Assembly: GCF_001697225.1 (NCBI RefSeq)
Contig: NZ_CP014671.1
Span: 2,356,001 to 2,420,000 of the forward strand
DNA from: Immundisolibacter cernigliae
Lineage (GTDB): Bacteria; Pseudomonadota; Gammaproteobacteria; Immundisolibacterales; Immundisolibacteraceae
Length of the DNA stretch: 64,000 bases
Direction: 5' to 3'
In this document: in pieces, positions 25,794 through 55,007 of the stretch
Numbering within the stretch: the first letter of the stretch is position 1
Layout of the letters: the number at the start of each line of letters is the position of its first letter
Position numbers and translations under genes: made by a program
The notes under the pieces: generated by a model
What the model was told of the DNA's origin: nothing
The model's database searches: none
Seen by the model: the letters and a program-made list of their open reading frames with translations, nothing else

Positions 25794-25947
25794 GGGAAGC
25801 GCCGAATAAATCCATCCTGGATTTCTCAGCGCCCGCCATCGGAAAAGCGTGGTTTTCCGATGGCTCACAAAATCAGCGGCTCATAGCCACTGATTTTGGC
25901 AGCGCGTCCCTGCGCTGCGGGAAGCGCTGAATAAATCAGCGCTTCCC
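25794..25947. repeat. Five-hairpin intergenic repeat, copy A
   Basis: This 154-bp element lies between two convergent genes and recurs at 41838. In order it contains AAATCCA/TGGATTT; a perfect 12-bp stem GCCATCGGAAAA/TTTTCCGATGGC (25835-25864); AAAATCAG/CTGATTTT with an inner GGCT/AGCC; GCAGCGC/GCGCTGC; and a perfect 12-bp stem GGGAAGCGCTGA/TCAGCGCTTCCC (25919-25947). Its ends are inverted (GGGAAGCGC...GCGCTTCCC), as in a miniature mobile element or a REP-type array. The right end touches the stop codon of the XylM-like gene. Confidence 0.85.
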
Positions 25948-27050
25948 TACGCACCGGGCGCCGTCTGCAACCACTGTGGCCAGCCGGCGCGGGCGTTCGC
26001 TTCCATGGCCAGCTCCTGCTCGGCCGGGCTGGCGAAGTGGCGGTCCCAGTTCTCGAGTCGCGGCCTGGCGATCACCCGCTCCCACAGCGGCGGGATGAAC
26101 GACGCCAGAAAACACGCCACGATGCTCGGCATCTGCGGCGCCTGCGTGTACGGGCGCAGCAGTTCGTAATGCTTGTCCGGGTCCAGGTGATGCTCCGAGT
26201 GCGTGGAAATCTCGAACGAGACCGCCCGGCTGAACGTGTTCAGGTGATTCCACGAGTGGTGCGGCAGCAGCGGCGTGCCCGGCTGGCGCACGATCCCGTA
26301 GTGCTGCGTGTAGTTGAAGCCGCCCAGGATCAGAAAACATACCGCCCAGGCGCCGATCAGCCACGGCAGGCCGAGCGGTCCGGCCAGCCACAGAAAAAAG
26401 CCGACCCAGGCGCTGACGCTGAACAGCGCCCACACCACACGGCTGCGCCACCACAGCACTGAGTGATCGCGCTTGGCCAGGCGGGCTTTTTCGAACCGGT
26501 AGGCCTTGACCGTGCCATCCACCACCGAGTCCCACACGAAGCGGTACACCGACTGACCGCGCACCGGGGTGTCGGAATCATCGGCCGTGCCGACGAACGG
26601 ATGATGCCCGTGCACGTGGTTGAGGTCGTTCATCGGCAGCCCGAACACCGTCAGGTACAGGCTGCAATAGGCGATTTCGAGCGGGTGTTTGCGGTGCATC
26701 AGCTCGTGCGCCGACGGCAGGCCGCCCAGCGCACTGAGGAAGGCAACCGCAATCAGCGCGCCGATCATGTTGAACCAGCCAAGGTCACCGGCGCGGATGT
26801 GCAGTGCAAACAGCACCCACAAGGTCACCATCAGGGGCAGCTGCAGGTACAGCACGCCGTTGTAGAACCACTTGCCGGCGCCCCCGCGCAGGCTGTGATC
26901 GGCCCCGGCCGTGAAATCCAGCAGCGCCAGGCTGACAAATCCGGCCAGGCCCAGCCACACCCAGGCCCCGCCCAGATACAGGCCGACAATGCCATTGCAC
27001 AGCATGGCGGTTGCGATCAGGTAACGGGCGTATTCGCCAATCCTTGGCAT
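25947..27050 (-). CDS. XylM/AlkB-family membrane non-haem diiron hydroxylase (copy 2)
   Basis: The protein has 367 residues. The histidine motifs are HELMHRKH, HVHGHH, YTQHYG and HSEHHLDP. It is homologous to the enzyme at 8043 along its length, but divergent. ATG at 27050 is chosen for the GGAGA ribosome site; the open frame continues upstream through the promoter of the divergent block and should not be included. It is transcribed divergently from the duplicated DUF1302 block with about 110 bases to the shared promoter region. Probable role: alkyl or methyl hydroxylation of an aromatic substrate. Confidence 0.87.
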   Translation of the reverse strand: MPRIGEYARYLIATAMLCNGIVGLYLGGAWVWLGLAGFVSLALLDFTAGADHSLRGGAGKWFYNGVLYLQLPLMVTLWVLFALHIRAGDLGWFNMIGALIAVAFLSALGGLPSAHELMHRKHPLEIAYCSLYLTVFGLPMNDLNHVHGHHPFVGTADDSDTPVRGQSVYRFVWDSVVDGTVKAYRFEKARLAKRDHSVLWWRSRVVWALFSVSAWVGFFLWLAGPLGLPWLIGAWAVCFLILGGFNYTQHYGIVRQPGTPLLPHHSWNHLNTFSRAVSFEISTHSEHHLDPDKHYELLRPYTQAPQMPSIVACFLASFIPPLWERVIARPRLENWDRHFASPAEQELAMEANARAGWPQWLQTAPGA

Positions 27051-27160: not shown

Positions 27161-27189
27161 TTGTCACGCCAATTTTTTGTGCGTATGGT
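27161..27189 (+). promoter_or_regulatory. Sigma-70-type promoter of duplicated block 1
   Basis: TTGTCA (27161-27166), a 17-base spacer and TATGGT (27184-27189). The spacer's last 13 bases (TTTTTTGTGCG region) and the -10 are conserved in block 2, where -35 reads TTGCCA. Conservation across the duplication supports function. Confidence 0.7.
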
Positions 27190-27239
27190 ACCGCTCGCAC
27201 TTTCCCAAGCACACATTTGGGAAGGGCAGGAGGAGAGGA

Positions 27240-27503
27240 ATGCGCGTGCGTGCCATCGTTGCTCGCCAGCCCAGCAGACCGTTCCCGGTCGACATCGTCG
27301 ATCGTACAGAGCCTGCCGCCCACCAATTCCTGGCCGCGCTCCCGCCGCGCGTCGGCGCCGTCTTCGACGGTGGCGCTGACGATGTTGGCAGCATCAGGAG
27401 CGCCGTCGTCGCCAATGGCATCACTACTGTCTGCTGCGGGCCCGGTCCGGCCCGCGCTGCGAATGATCTGAGCTTGACAACCGGTTTTCACGGCGTCCGT
27501 TAG
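27240..27503 (+). pseudogene. Remnant of a zinc alcohol dehydrogenase (block 1)
   Basis: A reading frame of 87 codons follows GGAGGAGAGGA. Its first 31 residues (MRVRAIVARQPSRPFPVDIV and on to the TEPAAHQFL segment) align with the start of the intact dehydrogenase at 31429 ([29 protein letters not shown]). After this the similarity stops and no zinc or NAD motif remains, while the DNA before DUF1302 resembles the end of block 2 again. The simplest reading is a duplicated dehydrogenase that lost most of its body. A short peptide may still be made. Confidence 0.65.
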
Positions 27504-27574
27504 CCACGGACGCTGGAAAAGTCCCTCGCGCTGATGGAGGGATATCAAGGGGGTGGGGCATCGCCGATGGCGAT
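27493..27574 (+). ncRNA. Structured leader upstream of DUF1302 gene 1
   Basis: Three hairpins occur in order: GCGTCCGT/ACGGACGC (27493-27513), TCCCTC/GAGGGA with a 9-base loop (27522-27542) and ATCGCC/GGCGAT (27560-27574). The same three are found upstream of the second DUF1302 gene, with paired changes in the first two stems. It may be a cis-acting RNA element of the mRNA; its role is unknown. Confidence 0.5.
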
Positions 27575-27609
27575 TGCGGTACTTCGATAATCGGGAGGGG
27601 TTACGCAAG

Positions 27610-29544
27610 ATGCAAACGCAACAAGTAAAACGGGTCCGTTCGGCATTGCCGGCCGGCGTGGCGGCACTGCTGGGGTCGGCGATTCTGGCGCCCGGCATGG
27701 CGCGCGCGGTGGAGTTCGAGTACTCCGGCTACATCCGCGAGCACCTGTCGGTCAACCTGCAGGACAACGACCAGTTCGAGCCCAAGGGCTCACCGGGCGG
27801 CAATCCGGTGACGTTCATCGGCGACGAATTCGGCGGCCAGGGCGAGTTCTCGATGATTCGCCACAGCGGCAAGCTGGAAGCCTCGGCCGATTTCGGCCCG
27901 TTCCAGATTGCCGGCGTCGGCCGCATTGCGCGCGAGACCCGCACCAGCTACGAGCGGGGGCTACAGGACGCATCCAAGGCGATTGCCGCCTATGTACACC
28001 CGGGTGCCTTCGGGTATGGCGCGCTCACCGCGCCACCGGCGTTCGGCGGTTTCGGCGTGACCACGAATGCTGAAGGCGGTCCGCTGATGCCGGGTGACGC
28101 GGTGTACGCCAATGCCGGGCTGTTCGGCTACGGCGGCGGCACCACCGATGACCTGTTGCTGGACGACTACGACTCGACCGAACTGCGCGAGCTGTACGTG
28201 ACCTTCGATCTTGGTGAGCGCACCCACGTCAAGCTCGGCAAGCAGCAGGTGGTGTGGGGCGAGACCGATTTCTTCCGGGCCATGGACATCATTCACGGCT
28301 ACGACCTGCGCTGGCGCTCGTTCCTGGAGCTGGAGAACGAGGAACTGCGCAAGCCGCTGAACCTGGCCAACGTCACCATCGACGTGCCGGAACTGGCCGG
28401 TGCGCTGCAACTGATCTACCGTCCGGGTTGGGATGGTGCCGACGACGTGGGCGACGACGGTCCCATCAACGGCGGTCGCTGGGCTCCGGCGCCCTGGACC
28501 GGCGCGGGCGTGACCAGCTCGCTGATCGGGCCGATCAACCGCCACCACAAGTATGGCGACGAGGACGACGCCAACTACGGCTTCCGCTGGTCGGGCACCT
28601 TCAAGCAGGTGGGCTACTCGTTCGCCTACTATCGGGGCATCAGCAGCGAAGGCGTGACCACCTACAACCCGATCCTGAGCCCGGGCGGCAGCAACTGGCT
28701 GTGGGATCCGAAGGACAACGGCATCGGCGGGAACCAGCGCCTGGTGGAGCTGCTGTCGCCGATGGTCGAGACCTACGGCTTCACCTTCAACGCCTACTCC
28801 GGGGCCCTGGATTCGGTGCTGCGCGGCGAGCTGGCCTTCACGCCGAACAAGCCCTACAACACCGGTACCAATACCTTCCTCGACCTGCTGGGCGCGTTCC
28901 AGGCGATGGGGGCGTTACCGCCGGCCGGGACACCCACGCCAAGTGGACCGATGCCGCCGCTGAAAGGCGTTCTGAACGATCCGAACGATCCGGGCTCTGC
29001 CTATTCCTTGGGTGACATGGTCACTGCCGATGGCACCCCGGTGGGTCTGGCCATGGATGTGCCCGGCCTGGGTCCGGTGATCGAGAAGGACACCCTCAAG
29101 ATCATGATCGGCGCGGACAAGAACCTGAACTGGACCATGAACACGCTGGGCACCTCGCGGCCGGCGTTCTGGACCCTGCAGCTGTTCGACACCTGGGTGA
29201 TGAACTTCGATCGGGACGACGACATCGTCGAGAACTTCGGCTTCGGCGCCTCGCGGCGTGAGCACCAGACGGTACTCACCAATGCCTTCTCGTTCCCGTA
29301 CAAGTACGACACGGTGACGCCGGGCATTGCGTTCGGTGTGGACCTGGGCAGCTTCGACTCGTTCCTGATCCCGTCGCTGGACCTGCAGTTCGGCGATCAC
29401 TGGCGGGTGCGCTTCGAGGCCGACCTGTTCTTCCCCACCCACGTTGAGAAGACCAACCTGGGTCGGGTGGACACCAAGACCCGCACGCTGGGCACGCTGC
29501 ACAACCGCGACCAGTTCGTGGCGCGTATCACGTACCAGTTCTGA
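27610..29544 (+). CDS. DUF1302 family outer-membrane beta-barrel protein (copy 1)
   Basis: The protein has 644 residues. A signal peptide ends near PGMARA (about residue 33) and the mature chain starts VEFEYSGYIREHLSVN. Rich aromatic/glycine strand patterns and the terminal VARITYQF (final Phe) are typical of outer-membrane barrels. DUF1302 proteins are widespread near hydrocarbon, terpene and steroid degradation genes, and a function in hydrophobic-substrate uptake is suspected, not proven. It is nearly identical to copy 2 except in two patches (about residues 131-160 and 431-477). The start at 27610 follows GGGAGG. Confidence 0.85.
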   Translation: MQTQQVKRVRSALPAGVAALLGSAILAPGMARAVEFEYSGYIREHLSVNLQDNDQFEPKGSPGGNPVTFIGDEFGGQGEFSMIRHSGKLEASADFGPFQIAGVGRIARETRTSYERGLQDASKAIAAYVHPGAFGYGALTAPPAFGGFGVTTNAEGGPLMPGDAVYANAGLFGYGGGTTDDLLLDDYDSTELRELYVTFDLGERTHVKLGKQQVVWGETDFFRAMDIIHGYDLRWRSFLELENEELRKPLNLANVTIDVPELAGALQLIYRPGWDGADDVGDDGPINGGRWAPAPWTGAGVTSSLIGPINRHHKYGDEDDANYGFRWSGTFKQVGYSFAYYRGISSEGVTTYNPILSPGGSNWLWDPKDNGIGGNQRLVELLSPMVETYGFTFNAYSGALDSVLRGELAFTPNKPYNTGTNTFLDLLGAFQAMGALPPAGTPTPSGPMPPLKGVLNDPNDPGSAYSLGDMVTADGTPVGLAMDVPGLGPVIEKDTLKIMIGADKNLNWTMNTLGTSRPAFWTLQLFDTWVMNFDRDDDIVENFGFGASRREHQTVLTNAFSFPYKYDTVTPGIAFGVDLGSFDSFLIPSLDLQFGDHWRVRFEADLFFPTHVEKTNLGRVDTKTRTLGTLHNRDQFVARITYQF

Positions 29545-29643
29545 TTGCAGCGGATCACGCGTTTGGAAAAGGGTTTTCCCTGCGGGTGGTGGCGACGCCG
29601 CTCGTAGGGGAATTCCGACAACTACTTGAGCGAGGACTACAGG

Positions 29644-30912
29644 ATGTTCAGAAAAAAAGTTGCCCGCGTGCTGGCTTGCGGCAGCCTGGCCGCCGGGCTG
29701 TCGTTTGCCGGGCCGGTTCTGGCCGAGGAAGTGGCTGAAGGCACGGTCCTGAACGCGGCGAGCATCGACAGCCTGCTCGACAAGACTCTGCAGGGTCAGC
29801 CGATCAAAAATTTGCTGGTGGGCGAGCAGCAAAAAATGATTCGCCAGTTTGGCGTGACCATGGTGCTGACGCACACAAAACCCGTCAACGTCACTAGTGG
29901 GCTGCTTGAGCTGACTGAAAAGCACAAGGGCGAGGCGAAACTTGACGCCGGCAAGCACTTGGTCGGCTACGCGACGGGAGTGCCGTTTCCGGATATAGAA
30001 GTCGCAGACCCCGATGCTGGCATAAAGCTGGTCTACAACGCGCTGCGTGTGGGCTGGTTGGGCGATGCCTTGTATCTGAACCCGCTGTATTTTTTGATTA
30101 TTGACGGCAAGAAGGGTCTTGAAAAGGAACAGGGCTGGGTGTATCGGCGTTTCCTGATGTCCGGGCGTCTGACGGAGCCGCCGGTTCTGGATGACACGAT
30201 CGCCAAGTACGAGGCGCTGATCAACGTCTATCCCAACGACACCCGCGGCCTTGGCCTGCTGACCGTGAACTACACCGATGGCCGGCTGCCGGACGTGTAT
30301 GCCTACGTCAAGAGTCTGCGACGGGTACGGCGGTTGTCCAGCGGCGCCTGGGCCGATCCGGTGCAGGGCACGGACTTGCTGTTCGACGATACGTTCGGCC
30401 TGAATCTGGACCCAACCTGGTACGAGAGCTGGAAAATCGTCGCCAAGCGGCCGGCACTGGTTGTCGACCACTCCATACTGCCGCCGATGGACGAGAAAGC
30501 ATCCGGGCACGCCAAGTATCCGTTCATCAAACTTGATGAACCGCCGTTCTGGAACATGCAGCCCGACAACTACGAAACCCAGCTGGTTTTTGAACTCGAA
30601 GGGCGTCCCAAGAGCAATCATCTTGTGAGCCTGCGGCGCAGCTTCATTGGAGCCACACTGGGTGCGCCCAAGTTCTACTGGCAGGATATGTACGACCGCA
30701 AGGGCGAGCATTGGCGCTCCAACCAGCTCGGCTACAAGGACTTCAAATGGGAGGACGGTCGTTCCGGGCCAAGCGTGGCCAACGTCCTGCTGGTCGACGT
30801 GCAGCGTTTCCACGCGACATCGTTTGGTTCATCGAAAGGTTTTCATTTCAATCCTGCCGGTGCCAAACAGGCCGACTACACGCCCGAAGCCCTGCCACGC
30901 ATGTTGCAGTGA
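29644..30912 (+). CDS. DUF1329 family envelope protein (copy 1)
   Basis: The protein has 422 residues with a signal peptide ending near AGPVLA (about residue 27). The mature part has the family stretches GWVYRRFLMSGR, INVYPNDTRGLGLLTVNYTD and YVKSLRRVRRLSSGAWADP. The fold resembles LolA/LppX-type lipid-binding proteins (family knowledge). It is almost always encoded next to DUF1302, as here. It may carry a hydrophobic ligand across the periplasm (inference). Copy 2 is clearly more diverged from it than the DUF1302 copies are from each other. ATG at 29644 is preferred over TTG 29626. Confidence 0.83.
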   Translation: MFRKKVARVLACGSLAAGLSFAGPVLAEEVAEGTVLNAASIDSLLDKTLQGQPIKNLLVGEQQKMIRQFGVTMVLTHTKPVNVTSGLLELTEKHKGEAKLDAGKHLVGYATGVPFPDIEVADPDAGIKLVYNALRVGWLGDALYLNPLYFLIIDGKKGLEKEQGWVYRRFLMSGRLTEPPVLDDTIAKYEALINVYPNDTRGLGLLTVNYTDGRLPDVYAYVKSLRRVRRLSSGAWADPVQGTDLLFDDTFGLNLDPTWYESWKIVAKRPALVVDHSILPPMDEKASGHAKYPFIKLDEPPFWNMQPDNYETQLVFELEGRPKSNHLVSLRRSFIGATLGAPKFYWQDMYDRKGEHWRSNQLGYKDFKWEDGRSGPSVANVLLVDVQRFHATSFGSSKGFHFNPAGAKQADYTPEALPRMLQ

Positions 30913-30920
30913 CTGGCTCG

Positions 30921-30991
30921 CCAGACCAGCCAAAACGCTGGTCTGGCGTCCTCCCCCAAAGGCCGCCGAACGCAAACGGCGGCTTTTTTTT
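30921..30991 (+). terminator. Double hairpin with T-run after duplicated block 1
   Basis: CCAGACCAGC/GCTGGTCTGG (30921-30946) is followed by GCCGCCG/CGGCGGC (30962-30983) and eight Ts. The second hairpin with its T-run is a strong rho-independent terminator that isolates block 1 from block 2. Confidence 0.85.
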
Positions 30992-31246
30992 GGGCGGTGT
31001 TGGTGTTCCCCTTTCAGTGGCGATTTGCGGCATCAGGCTCGACCGCCGCCGGGGGTGTGCGGCGGGTTCGCGCAGGGCCGCCGAGCAAGGGCCTTGGGGC
31101 TGTTTGGGCGCTGCTGGCGCGGGCCGCTGACCATAGGGTGGCTCACCATCCTGCGATGTGCGGCAGCCGCTGCCGCCCGATCCGGAGCCGACTTTCGATT
31201 CCCCAAGCGCTCCGCGCCATCTAACCATGCGGGTCCGGCGCCCCGG
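30992..31246. other. Intergenic stretch between duplicated blocks
   Basis: No convincing gene is seen between the block 1 terminator and the block 2 promoter region. Open frames here lack ribosome sites and family signatures. The GC-rich sequence has short direct runs only; it may be spacer left from the duplication. Confidence 0.5.
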
Positions 31247-31258
31247 CCGATCAGTCGG
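31247..31258. promoter_or_regulatory. Palindrome upstream of duplicated block 2
   Basis: CCGATCAGTCGG is followed by TCAGTAAGCAGGCGGG. It is the counterpart of the palindrome at 27081 and shares the CCGA/TCGG half-site with the sequence at 15117. Confidence 0.4.
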
Positions 31259-31327
31259 TCAGTAAGCAGGCGGGGGCGCCTGTCAAGGGCGATTGGGGAA
31301 AAATCCGCATTTTTCCGCGTTGCTTAA

Positions 31328-31356
31328 TTGCCACACGAGTTTTTTGTGCGTATGGT
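31328..31356 (+). promoter_or_regulatory. Sigma-70-type promoter of duplicated block 2
   Basis: TTGCCA (31328-31333), a 17-base spacer and TATGGT (31351-31356). The TTTTTTGTGCGTATGGTACC core is identical to block 1. Confidence 0.7.
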
Positions 31357-31428
31357 ACCGCCCGCGCCTGGCCCCGGACATACGTTCGGCAGGCAAAGGG
31401 ACTACGCAGGGCAGAAGGAGGAGCCAGA

Positions 31429-32529
31429 ATGCAAACGCGTGCAGCAGTCGTTCGCGAGCCGAAAGGACAGTTCACTGTCGAGACCGTCGAGCTGGCGGAA
31501 CCCGCCGACGACCAGATACTGGTCCGCATCGTCGCCGCCGGCATGTGCCACACCGACCTGTCCATTCGCGACCAGCTATATCCGGCCCCGCTGCCGATGG
31601 TGCTCGGTCACGAGGGCGCCGGCGTGGTCGAGAAGGTCGGCCGTAACGTGCGCAAGGTGGTGCCGGGCGATCACGTGGTGCTCACCTTCTACAGCTGCGG
31701 TCTGTGCGCCAACTGCCTGGCCGGCCAACCGCTGTCCTGTCTGAATGCCTTTGGCCTGAACTTCGGTGGCCGCACGCCGGACGGCCAGTGCACCATTCAC
31801 AATCACGACGAGGAAATCGGCTGCAGCTTTTTTGGCCAGTCGTCCTTCGCTGGCTACGCCCTGTCCTACGAGCGCAACACCATCAAGGTGCCCAAGGACG
31901 TGCCGCTGGACATCCTGGGGCCGCTCGGTTGCGGCATCCAGACCGGTGCCGGCTCGGTGCTGAACGCGCTCAATCCGCCGGCCGGCAGCACCATTGCCAT
32001 TTTCGGTGCCGGCGCCGTGGGCCTGAGCGCCGTCATGGGCGCCGTGGTCGCCAACTGCACCACCATCATCTGCGTCGACATCAAGGAAAATCGCCTGGCC
32101 CTGGCCAGGGAACTGGGCGCCACACACGCCATCAACGGCACGCAGTGCAACCCGGTCGAGGAAATCCAGAAAATCACCGGCGGCCTGGGTGTGCCGTACA
32201 TGCTGGAGACCACCGGCAATCCGCGCGTGCTGGAAGGCGCCGTGTTCAGTCTGGGTATGGGCGGTGTGGGCGGCATCGTCGGAGCGCCGGCCATGGGTAC
32301 CACGGTCAGCCTGGACGTGAACTTCATGCTGTTCAATCGCACCCTGCGCGGCATCATCGAGGGCGACAGCAATTCGGACGTGTTCGTCCCGCGTCTGATC
32401 GAGCTGTACAAGCAGGGCAAGTTTCCGTTCGACAAGCTGATCAAGTTCTACAGCCTGGATCAGATCAACCAGGCGGCAGCGGATTCGGAAGCCGGCGGTA
32501 CGCTAAAACCCGTGCTGCGCATGGCCTGA
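31429..32529 (+). CDS. Zinc-dependent alcohol dehydrogenase, aryl-alcohol (XylB-like) type
   Basis: The protein has 366 residues. Catalytic zinc residues Cys40 and His61/Glu62 (GMCHTDL, GHEGAG), structural zinc cysteines C90, C93, C96 and C104, and the FGAGAVG nucleotide loop are all intact. It resembles benzyl-alcohol dehydrogenases of the TOL pathway, which convert aryl alcohols to aldehydes. It would follow the XylM-like hydroxylases and precede the aldehyde dehydrogenase at 10930. It is the functional counterpart of the remnant at 27240 and opens block 2. Confidence 0.9.
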
Positions 32530-32549
32530 ACGCAGCAAACAGTTTCAGG

Positions 32550-32630
32550 GCGTCTGTAGCCGCAGACGCGGGGATGTCCCCTGCACGCACGGGGGGCATC
32601 AAGGGGGAGCGGGGCATCGCCGCTGGCGAT
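32550..32630 (+). ncRNA. Structured leader upstream of DUF1302 gene 2
   Basis: Hairpins GCGTCTG/CAGACGC (32550-32569), TCCCC/GGGGG with a 9-base loop (32577-32595) and ATCGCC/GGCGAT (32616-32630). Compared with block 1, a C-G pair in the first stem became T-A and a T-A pair in the second became C-G, so pairing is preserved. Confidence 0.5.
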
Positions 32631-32665
32631 TGCCGAAACTCGACTTTCGGAGGGATATACACGAG

Positions 32666-34588: not shown

Positions 34589-34638
34589 AGGTGTTCCGGT
34601 AGCTGTTTCGAGTTTTTGGATAACAACAAACAAGGATT

Positions 34639-34667
34639 GGCCCGGCCGGCGGTGTGCTGGCCGGGCC
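34639..34667 (+). other. Hairpin between DUF1302 copy 2 and DUF1329 copy 2
   Basis: GGCCCGGCC and GGCCGGGCC pair perfectly (9 bp) around an 11-base loop, 36 bases before the DUF1329 start. No T-run follows. It could stabilise the upstream transcript or lower expression of the distal gene. Confidence 0.5.
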
Positions 34668-34702
34668 GATCAGTAAAGTCACCGAACCGAGGATAAACAA
34701 GC

Positions 34703-35977: not shown

Positions 35978-36026
35978 GCAGGGCGTCTGGGTCGGCTTCG
36001 GGCTGATTCAGATGTGTTGTCGTGGG

Positions 36027-36055
36027 GCCGCCGCACATGTGCGGCGGCTTTTTTT
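36027..36055 (+). terminator. Rho-independent terminator after duplicated block 2
   Basis: GCCGCCGCAC pairs perfectly with GTGCGGCGGC around a 2-base loop and is followed by seven Ts. It lies only about 70 bases before the YCF48-like gene, so that gene has its own promoter or depends on readthrough. Confidence 0.85.
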
Positions 36056-52031: not shown

Positions 52032-52967
52032 ATGCTGCACCGTTCCGGCCGCGCTGGCGGCGCATTGCTTGTCTTGCTGGCACTGGCCGGCGCGGTGTCG
52101 GCAGCGACCAGCCCCAGGGACTTCGACCAGCGCCTGACGGCGCTGGAGCAGGCGGCCGGCGCCGCCGGTGCGGGGGCTGGCCAGAGCCAGGCGCAGGTGG
52201 TGATGCAATTGCAGCAGATGCAGGCCGAACTGCGCCAGCTGCGCGGCATGGTGGAGGAATCCGCCAATCAAGTGCAGCAGTTGCAAAAGCGCCAGCGCGA
52301 GTTCTATCTGGACCTCGACGGTCGGCTGAGCACGCTGGAAGGAGGTGGTTCGCCGTCCGGTGGGACTGCCGCGCCGCCAGCCGAGCCGGGGACTGACGCC
52401 GCAGCGCCAAGCCCGCCACCCGGCGGGTCGGCAGGCGTCGATGCGCCCGCAGCGCCGGGACCCGCGTCGACGGCGGATGCCGGGCCGGTCGAGAGGCCGG
52501 TTGCGCCGGTCGTTGCTCCGCCTCCCCCGCCGGCGCCCGCCGGCCAGGTGGCATCGGTTGCGCCGGCTGCGGCGGATGCCGGCGGTGAACAGGCTGCCTA
52601 TCGGGCGGCTTCCGAGCTGCTGCGCATCGGACGCTACGAGGACGCCATCGCCGGCTTCCAGGCGCAGCTTCAGCAATATCCGGGCGGCAGTCTTGCCGAC
52701 AACGCACAGTACTGGATCGGTGAGGCGTACTACGTCACGCGCCAGTTCGACCGTGCGCTGGCCGAATTCCAGCGCGTTGTGGCGCAGTATCCACAGTCGC
52801 CCAAGGCGGCCGATGCCCTGCTCAAGGTGGGTTATATCCAGTACGAGCGTCGGCAGTTCGCGGCCGCCCGCCAGACGCTGACGGATCTCAAGACCACCTG
52901 GCCCAACAGCCCGGCGGCTCGTCTGGCGGACAACCGCCTGAGCCGGATGAAGGAAGAGGGCGTCTGA
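52032..52967 (+). CDS. cpoB: Cell division coordinator CpoB (YbgF)
   Basis: The protein has 311 residues from ATG 52032. It has a signal peptide, an N-terminal coiled coil (QLQQMQAELRQLRGMVEE), a long Ala/Pro-rich linker and C-terminal TPR repeats (YWIGEAYYVTRQFDRALAEF). CpoB couples Tol-Pal to peptidoglycan synthesis. The linker of about 100 residues is long for the family. A hairpin array begins at its stop codon. Confidence 0.9.
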   Translation: MLHRSGRAGGALLVLLALAGAVSAATSPRDFDQRLTALEQAAGAAGAGAGQSQAQVVMQLQQMQAELRQLRGMVEESANQVQQLQKRQREFYLDLDGRLSTLEGGGSPSGGTAAPPAEPGTDAAAPSPPPGGSAGVDAPAAPGPASTADAGPVERPVAPVVAPPPPPAPAGQVASVAPAAADAGGEQAAYRAASELLRIGRYEDAIAGFQAQLQQYPGGSLADNAQYWIGEAYYVTRQFDRALAEFQRVVAQYPQSPKAADALLKVGYIQYERRQFAAARQTLTDLKTTWPNSPAARLADNRLSRMKEEGV

Positions 52968-53106
52968 GAGCTTGTGACATTCAAGCTCTCAGTCCGGCCA
53001 GGGCTGGCCGGTCGCCCATCGAGCACGCAAGTGCTTGATGGGCGGGAGCGAATCCGGGCGTGTACCGGACTCGCGACAGAAGAAATGCGCAGGACGTGCA
53101 TTTCTT
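52966..53106 (+). other. Array of five consecutive hairpins between cpoB and queE
   Basis: GAGAGCTTG/CAAGCTCTC (52966-52990); CCGGCCAG/CTGGCCGG (52994-53011); CGCCCATC-g-AGCAC with GTGCT-t-GATGGGCG closing on a GCAA tetraloop (53013-53044); GCGA-TCCGG/CCGGA-TCGC (53048-53074); AAGAAATGC/GCATTTCTT (53080-53106). The first overlaps the cpoB stop codon. The stems differ from those of the repeats at 25794 and 41838. It may be a REP-type element, an mRNA stabiliser or a regulator of queE. Confidence 0.75.
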
Positions 53107-53140
53107 TACAAATTCTGAGCCGCCCGCCGGCTGGTTTGCA

Positions 53141-54544: not shown

Positions 54545-54620
54545 GGGCCGTTAGCTCAGTCGGTAGAGCAGCGGACTTTTAATCCGCGTGTCCTGGGTTC
54601 GATTCCCAGACGGCCCACCA
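54545..54620 (+). tRNA. tRNA-Lys (anticodon TTT)
   Basis: Acceptor GGGCCGT pairs with ACGGCCC. The D arm is TAGCTCAGTCGGTAGAGCA, the anticodon stem GCGGA/TCCGC encloses CTTTTAA, the T arm is CTGGGTTCGATTCCCAG, and CCA is encoded. The following DNA looks accessory, so the gene may have served as an integration site. Confidence 0.98.
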
Positions 54621-55007
54621 TTTCGCATTCCGCCGGCGCCCGCCAAGCGCCGCGAACCCCGTATGAAGCCAAGCGTCAAGACACATCGTTGGCTTTGCCG
54701 GCGCCCGCTTGCGTCCATGACATCCAGTAATCTGACGGTAACTTCAGCGGTGATCAGCGCACCGCCGCGACGCGGCGCGCCTTGGCTTTTCCGCGGCGAC
54801 GCTGCGGCATTGGGAACGCGGCGACTGCACGCCCAAAGGGCCGACGCTGGCATTGCTCAATGTCATACACAGTGGGAACCGAAGGCCGCGCTGCGGGCGC
54901 TGGCTGCCTGATCGTTTGCCGCGCCCAGGCCGACGGGGCGAAAAGCCGGACACCTTCGCTGGCTTGGTACGGTGCCTTTATGAAGGACGCGTGACGGAGT
55001 ACCGCAC
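54621..55007. other. Gene-poor stretch downstream of tRNA-Lys
   Basis: No convincing gene is seen. Short open frames on both strands lack family signatures. No integrase and no second copy of the tRNA 3' end is visible here. Confidence 0.5.

Follow-up and report, generated by a model that had tools for sequence, protein, structure and literature searches.

Three conserved RNA hairpins in the spacer between an alcohol dehydrogenase gene and a DUF1302 gene of Immundisolibacter

Two DUF1302 genes of the soil bacterium Immundisolibacter cernigliae are each preceded by three hairpins, H1, H2 and H3, which raises the question of whether these form a conserved RNA structure and, if so, which gene they serve. 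The stretch analysed here, called the window, comprises 64,000 nucleotides (nt) of a 3.24-Mb single-contig genome (contig NZ_CP014671.1, positions 2,356,001 to 2,420,000), and the two genes belong to two copies of a gene cassette, block 1 and block 2. We compared them with two orthologous loci of the same genus of soil bacteria, G001 and G002, the latter from Immundisolibacter sp. STE_186, giving a set of four leader sequences plus one degenerate sequence. Our conclusion is that the spacer carrying H1-H3 is a real conserved RNA structure, absent from Rfam and found in one genus, and that the kind of element to which we would assign it, operon-internal processing or stabilising, is already known. 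Positions within the blocks are those of the window, and all features given for them lie on the + strand.

A preliminary description of the window had placed the three hairpins in identical order before both DUF1302 genes, and its coordinates and bases were verified throughout. H1 spans 27485..27520 in block 1, with the core GGCGTCCG-TTAGCCA-CGGACGC (around 27492-27513) above a lower stem UUUUC/GAAAA, and 32543..32574 in block 2, with the core GCGTCTG-TAGCCG-CAGACGC (32550-32569) above a lower stem UUUC/GGGA that overlaps the most stable register of H2. H2 lies at 27522..27542 in block 1 (TCCCTC-9nt-GAGGGA), where the TCCCTC/GAGGGA stem forms when the segment is folded alone and the minimum free energy (MFE) structure of the whole leader has an alternative pairing. 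In block 2 it lies at 32573..32600 in its most stable register. The 9-base H2 loop, described as constant, is present in one register; in block 2, however, a slipped register folds better, with an 11-bp stem and a 6-nt loop (32573-32600). Between H2 and H3 is a G-rich, Shine-Dalgarno-like linker, AUCAAGGGGG (27544..27553 in block 1, 32598..32607 in block 2), which is nearly unchanged among the leaders and reads AUCAAGGGGGAG in block 2 and G001. H3 (27558..27577 and 32613..32634) is nearly invariant between the blocks, and is followed by the Shine-Dalgarno (SD) region of DUF1302 at 27592..27605 in block 1 (anti-SD duplex -13.1 kcal/mol) and at 32648..32660 in block 2 (-12.0 kcal/mol).

Do the differences between these sequences respect the pairing? 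The paired change described for H1, C27498-G27508 in block 1 against T32555-A32564 in block 2, is exact. That described for H2, T27526-A27538 against C32580-G32592, is present but was one alignment column off (54/66 rather than 53/65), and survives because the aligned pair 54/66 is likewise U-A against C-G. Compared with shuffled sequences, the block 1 leader folds with z = -3.71 (0/200 shuffles) and the block 2 leader with z = -3.28 (1/200), a value reached by 2.2% of 106-nt stretches of the window. The blocks differ at 5 of 40 core stem sites as against 25 of 71 unpaired sites; all 20 core pairs are kept (P ~0.01), two of them through double changes (P ~0.003). Two paralogues by themselves are weak evidence, a column-shuffle covariation test is weak with three close sequences and gave no significance (40/500), and thus the case for covariation rests on the diverged fourth sequence, that of G002.

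A covariance model built from block 1, block 2 and G001, with G002 left out, matches the full length of the G002 spacer (E = 9.4e-12, or 2.3e-10 when the same model is run against the whole G002 genome), and the match occupies the equivalent location, between the alcohol dehydrogenase gene and DUF1302. The G002 leader folds with z = -3.86 into an H1 of 15 bp, an H2 of 7 bp and an H3 of 6 bp. Over H1 and H2 it has changed at 10 of 36 stem sites relative to block 2, with 18 of 18 pairs remaining standard and four changed on both sides, a degree of conservation with simulated P ~6e-4 and 1.5e-4 on pair lists that were aligned by hand. In a MAFFT alignment of the four sequences, 93.6% of cells pair, compared with 44-58% for slid partners. 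It is therefore well supported that H1 and H2 are kept as RNA pairing and H3 as a hairpin across the four leaders. The earlier reading of paired changes as a sign of conserved RNA structure is borne out by the G002 leader, which keeps H1 and H2 through its four double changes.

The element is limited to one operon arrangement in one genus. We searched the I. cernigliae genome and 19 relatives with the model and found no further good matches beyond the four leaders; there were weak partial matches in G014 and G019, and a full-length match in G003:C19 (E = 0.001) was taken as chance, as it runs against the genes of the pheS/thrS region in which it lies. The earlier statement about both DUF1302 genes holds for the two in the window but not for the genome, which has seven DUF1302 genes and a good model match before only these two. 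A third paralogue, elsewhere in the genome (260526-262442, minus strand), encodes a 90% identical protein, yet its upstream region shows no significant structure (z +0.34) and gives only a degenerate model match of 17 bits, retaining just the 3' part of the element that adjoins DUF1302. Rieske dioxygenase genes follow this paralogue directly, ~14 nt downstream (within 258000-266000). In the sister genus, G003 and G005 keep the order of alcohol dehydrogenase and DUF1302 genes, with a longer spacer and, by eye, a promoter-like sequence adjoining DUF1302; the first 101 nt of the G003 spacer have no significant structure (z +0.49), and the G005 spacer has two hairpins that cannot be aligned to H1-H3. 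In G006 and in the KhS contigs only ~60 nt precede the gene, so the upstream region is missing. Absence of the hairpins from other homologues, which the preliminary description would have counted against conserved structure, is thus seen in the third paralogue and in G003, whereas the diverged G002 keeps a covarying H1 and H2. Because the third paralogue and the G003 spacer are without the hairpins, the element is not a general DUF1302 leader, and belongs to the operon arrangement of alcohol dehydrogenase and DUF1302.

That arrangement is intact in block 2, which consists of a zinc-dependent alcohol dehydrogenase (ADH) gene (31429..32529; ADH_N, ADH_zinc_N), the spacer, DUF1302 (PF06980; 32666..34588), DUF1329 (PF07044; 34703..35977) and a terminator, followed by a YCF48-like gene and an MMPL gene. 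Block 1 repeats this cassette, with DUF1302 at 27610..29544 and DUF1329 at 29644..30912, but its ADH gene is shrunken and decayed to a relic (27240..27503), in which ~31 N-terminal codons are recognisable and the remainder is deleted or decayed. In block 2, G001 and G002, three orthologous loci, H1-H3 form the spacer between an intact ADH and DUF1302; ADH, spacer and DUF1302 are co-oriented there, and the gene layout predicts one transcription unit. A sigma-70-like promoter sequence, TTG(T/C)CA-17-TATGGT, is found upstream of ADH in block 2 (TTGCCA-17-TATGGT, 31328..31356) and upstream of the relic in block 1 (TTGTCA-17-TATGGT, 27161..27189, aligning with the block 2 copy), in each case as a consensus match only, and no promoter-like site was found within the H1-H3 spacer of either block. 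The term leader RNA, used in the preliminary description, therefore does not apply in the sense of a 5'-terminal leader, given a spacer position in three loci and a promoter-like site only upstream of ADH. Block 1 resembles a leader because its ADH has decayed; the stop codon of the relic now falls in the H1 loop. The ompA mRNA, which encodes an outer-membrane barrel, carries a stabiliser in its 5' untranslated region, a stable hairpin located at the primary 5' end. H1-H3 are similarly placed 5' of an outer-membrane barrel coding region, but the nearest promoter-like site in Immundisolibacter lies upstream of an entire other gene, ADH.

What might a structured spacer do between two cistrons? 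In papBA, ribonuclease E (RNase E) cuts the intercistronic RNA just upstream of a hairpin, and a structured 5' end together with 3' structure protects the downstream segment (PMC5927463). The RNase E-like motif RN|WUU taken from that work occurs just 5' of H1 as GGUUU in block 1 (27483..27487) and AGUUU in block 2 (32541..32545); it stands a few bases before H1 in 4 of 4 leaders, whereas a random 24-mer of the region contains one at a frequency of 0.115. The genome has an RNase E/G-family gene (RNase_E_G domain, E = 8e-101, in an 835-aa frame). Judging from the sequences, we put the chances at about even that the element is a papBA-like processing and stabilising spacer of an ADH-DUF1302-DUF1329 unit that brackets the barrel mRNA. 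On such a model, the primary transcript would start upstream of ADH and RNase E would cleave at the (A/G)GUUU conserved immediately ahead of H1. The freed ADH segment would then be degraded, starting at the 3' end created by the cut, the structured 5' end formed by H1-H3 would make the DUF1302 segment resistant to further 5'-dependent attack, and hairpins on the 3' side of that segment would block 3'-5' exonucleases. The outcome would be barrel protein in excess over ADH from one promoter, much as in papBA. We infer cleavage, stabilisation and raised DUF1302 expression, and the earlier suggestion that the hairpins might control expression of a very abundant barrel mRNA is plausible; a role for DUF1302 is indicated because no pair has been lost in block 1, where only a relic of ADH is left.

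The likeness to papBA (PMC5927463) includes a polycistronic unit, an intercistronic hairpin directly 3' of a candidate RNase E motif, a downstream gene for a cell-surface protein and RNase-resistant structures at the 3' end. It differs in that Immundisolibacter has three hairpins instead of one, a conserved linker and unrelated genes and sequence, with processing predicted here from the sequence. Intergenic stem-loops in the cip-cel operon of Clostridium cellulolyticum are reported to set relative transcript amounts via processing and stabilisation (PMC4423207). There too, stem-loops lie in the intergenic regions of a single operon, but the phylum and genes are others, and the Immundisolibacter case is again a prediction.

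Several points weigh against this interpretation. RNWUU is a weak motif, and its UUU can pair with the GGGA below H1, while RNase E prefers unpaired sites. The G001 leader on its own folds only modestly (z = -1.95). H3 is kept as a hairpin in G002 with its register shifted, so that its pairs are not retained position by position. The collections searched contain only four leaders, of which two are paralogues. Finally, tandem hairpins also fill other gaps in the window (25812-25970 and 52948-53107), so that hairpins in spacers may be a general feature of this genome.

There are other possible explanations for a conserved structure in this position. The first is that the hairpins chiefly serve the 3' end of the ADH mRNA, protecting or forming it as a 3' stabiliser or a Rho-assisted 3' end, and that DUF1302 merely follows. 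H1 begins ~20 nt past the ADH stop codon in block 2, G001 and G002, and the two strong hairpins of G005 (z -3.55) stand right past the ADH stop, with DUF1302 there having its own promoter-like sequence. However, block 1 keeps its full set of core pairs, including the two compensated changes, beside an ADH relic; leader similarity extends to the DUF1302 start codon; H1-H3 have no U-tract; and what the third paralogue retains is the DUF1302-adjoining part. We consider a role at the ADH 3' end possible, though on balance unlikely. An intrinsic terminator or attenuator was rejected as a candidate, given the lack of a U-tract at H1-H3 and true terminators that come after DUF1329.

A second explanation is translational control, in which the hairpins would present the SD-like linker as a ribosome standby site, loading 30S subunits for the DUF1302 start and decoupling it from translation of ADH. 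Few unpaired stretches of the four leaders are conserved as well as the linker, and its duplex with the anti-SD (-10.5 to -15.3 kcal/mol) is similar to that of the real SD (-11.2 to -13.1 kcal/mol). Against this, any G-run will tend to pair well with C-rich RNA, the predicted accessibility of linker and SD differs among the leaders, and no start codon is suitably spaced in block 2 or G002. Such a standby site seems to us improbable, and the lack of a fitting start codon in these two sequences also led us to reject a leader peptide encoded between the hairpins.

Less credible still is a riboswitch, that is, a ligand-sensing leader, or a protein-binding regulatory RNA. Several hairpins and a conserved linker beside a gene for a transport-like outer-membrane protein could be taken to suggest one, but Rfam gives no match for H1-H3 above the gathering score (the window yields only tRNA and int-alpA), there is no terminator/anti-terminator pair, the element is confined to one operon type of one genus, and, with its loops and the majority of its unpaired positions altered in G002, it has no conserved binding core. 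It is likewise very doubtful that the leaders are alike just as remnants of a segmental duplication with functionless hairpins: the blocks are indeed paralogous (78% identity in the part of the leader that matches, 95% for the protein, with promoter regions that also align), but stem sites are conserved above unpaired sites, every changed pair is still standard, and G002, which has independently retained H1 and H2 with other bases, largely contradicts this view. A repeated palindrome of the repetitive extragenic palindrome or bacterial interspersed mosaic element type was rejected, as only the two leaders of the window match well in this genome, by sequence and by model.

Returning to the proposed processing and stabilising spacer, hairpins are also found at the other junctions of the unit. 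In the gap between DUF1302 and DUF1329, block 1 has a hairpin at 29571..29616 (z -3.13, 0/200 shuffles) and block 2 one of 16 bp at 34635..34671 (z -4.64, 0/200 shuffles); G002 has one with z -3.74 and G001 a weaker one with z -1.60. These gap hairpins have no U-tract and their letters are unrelated. Past DUF1329, a hairpin without a U-tract and then an intrinsic terminator occur in 4 of 4 loci, at 30919..30948 and 30958..30990 in block 1 (jointly z -7.79) and at 35978..36020 and 36026..36055 in block 2 (jointly z -7.26). Near the predicted transcript 5' end, upstream of ADH, there is a hairpin in block 1 (27200..27225, CTTTCCCAA/TTTGGGAAGG), block 2 (31367..31393) and G001, kept with differing stem letters; it is possibly a 5' stabiliser. 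Each segment appears to be bracketed by structure, because hairpins sit at the 5' end, in the gaps and at the 3' end. An extension of this pattern, which we offer only tentatively and regard as doubtful, is that the operon consists of hairpin-bracketed segments in which structure is selected while sequence turns over, and that H1-H2-linker-H3 is in addition a dedicated dosage and standby module for the barrel that survives loss of the upstream gene. If true, this would be a clean example from nature of operon spacers selected for their structure alone. The role of the hairpins for an outer-membrane barrel can be tested directly here, since there are paralogues that have or lack the upstream gene as well as a close one lacking the element, in a DUF1302/DUF1329 pair that is widespread and poorly understood.

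Three other places in the window deserve mention. Very strong tandem hairpins (z ~-8.5) at 25812-25970, between convergent nitroreductase-like and membrane hydroxylase-like genes, are probably bidirectional terminators. Four strong hairpins in tandem at 52948-53107, with an MFE of -92 kcal/mol over 160 nt, make this one of the most structured parts of the window. At 54545-54986, a tRNA-Lys precedes an int-alpA RNA match (RF02996), which suggests a mobile element integrated at the tRNA gene.

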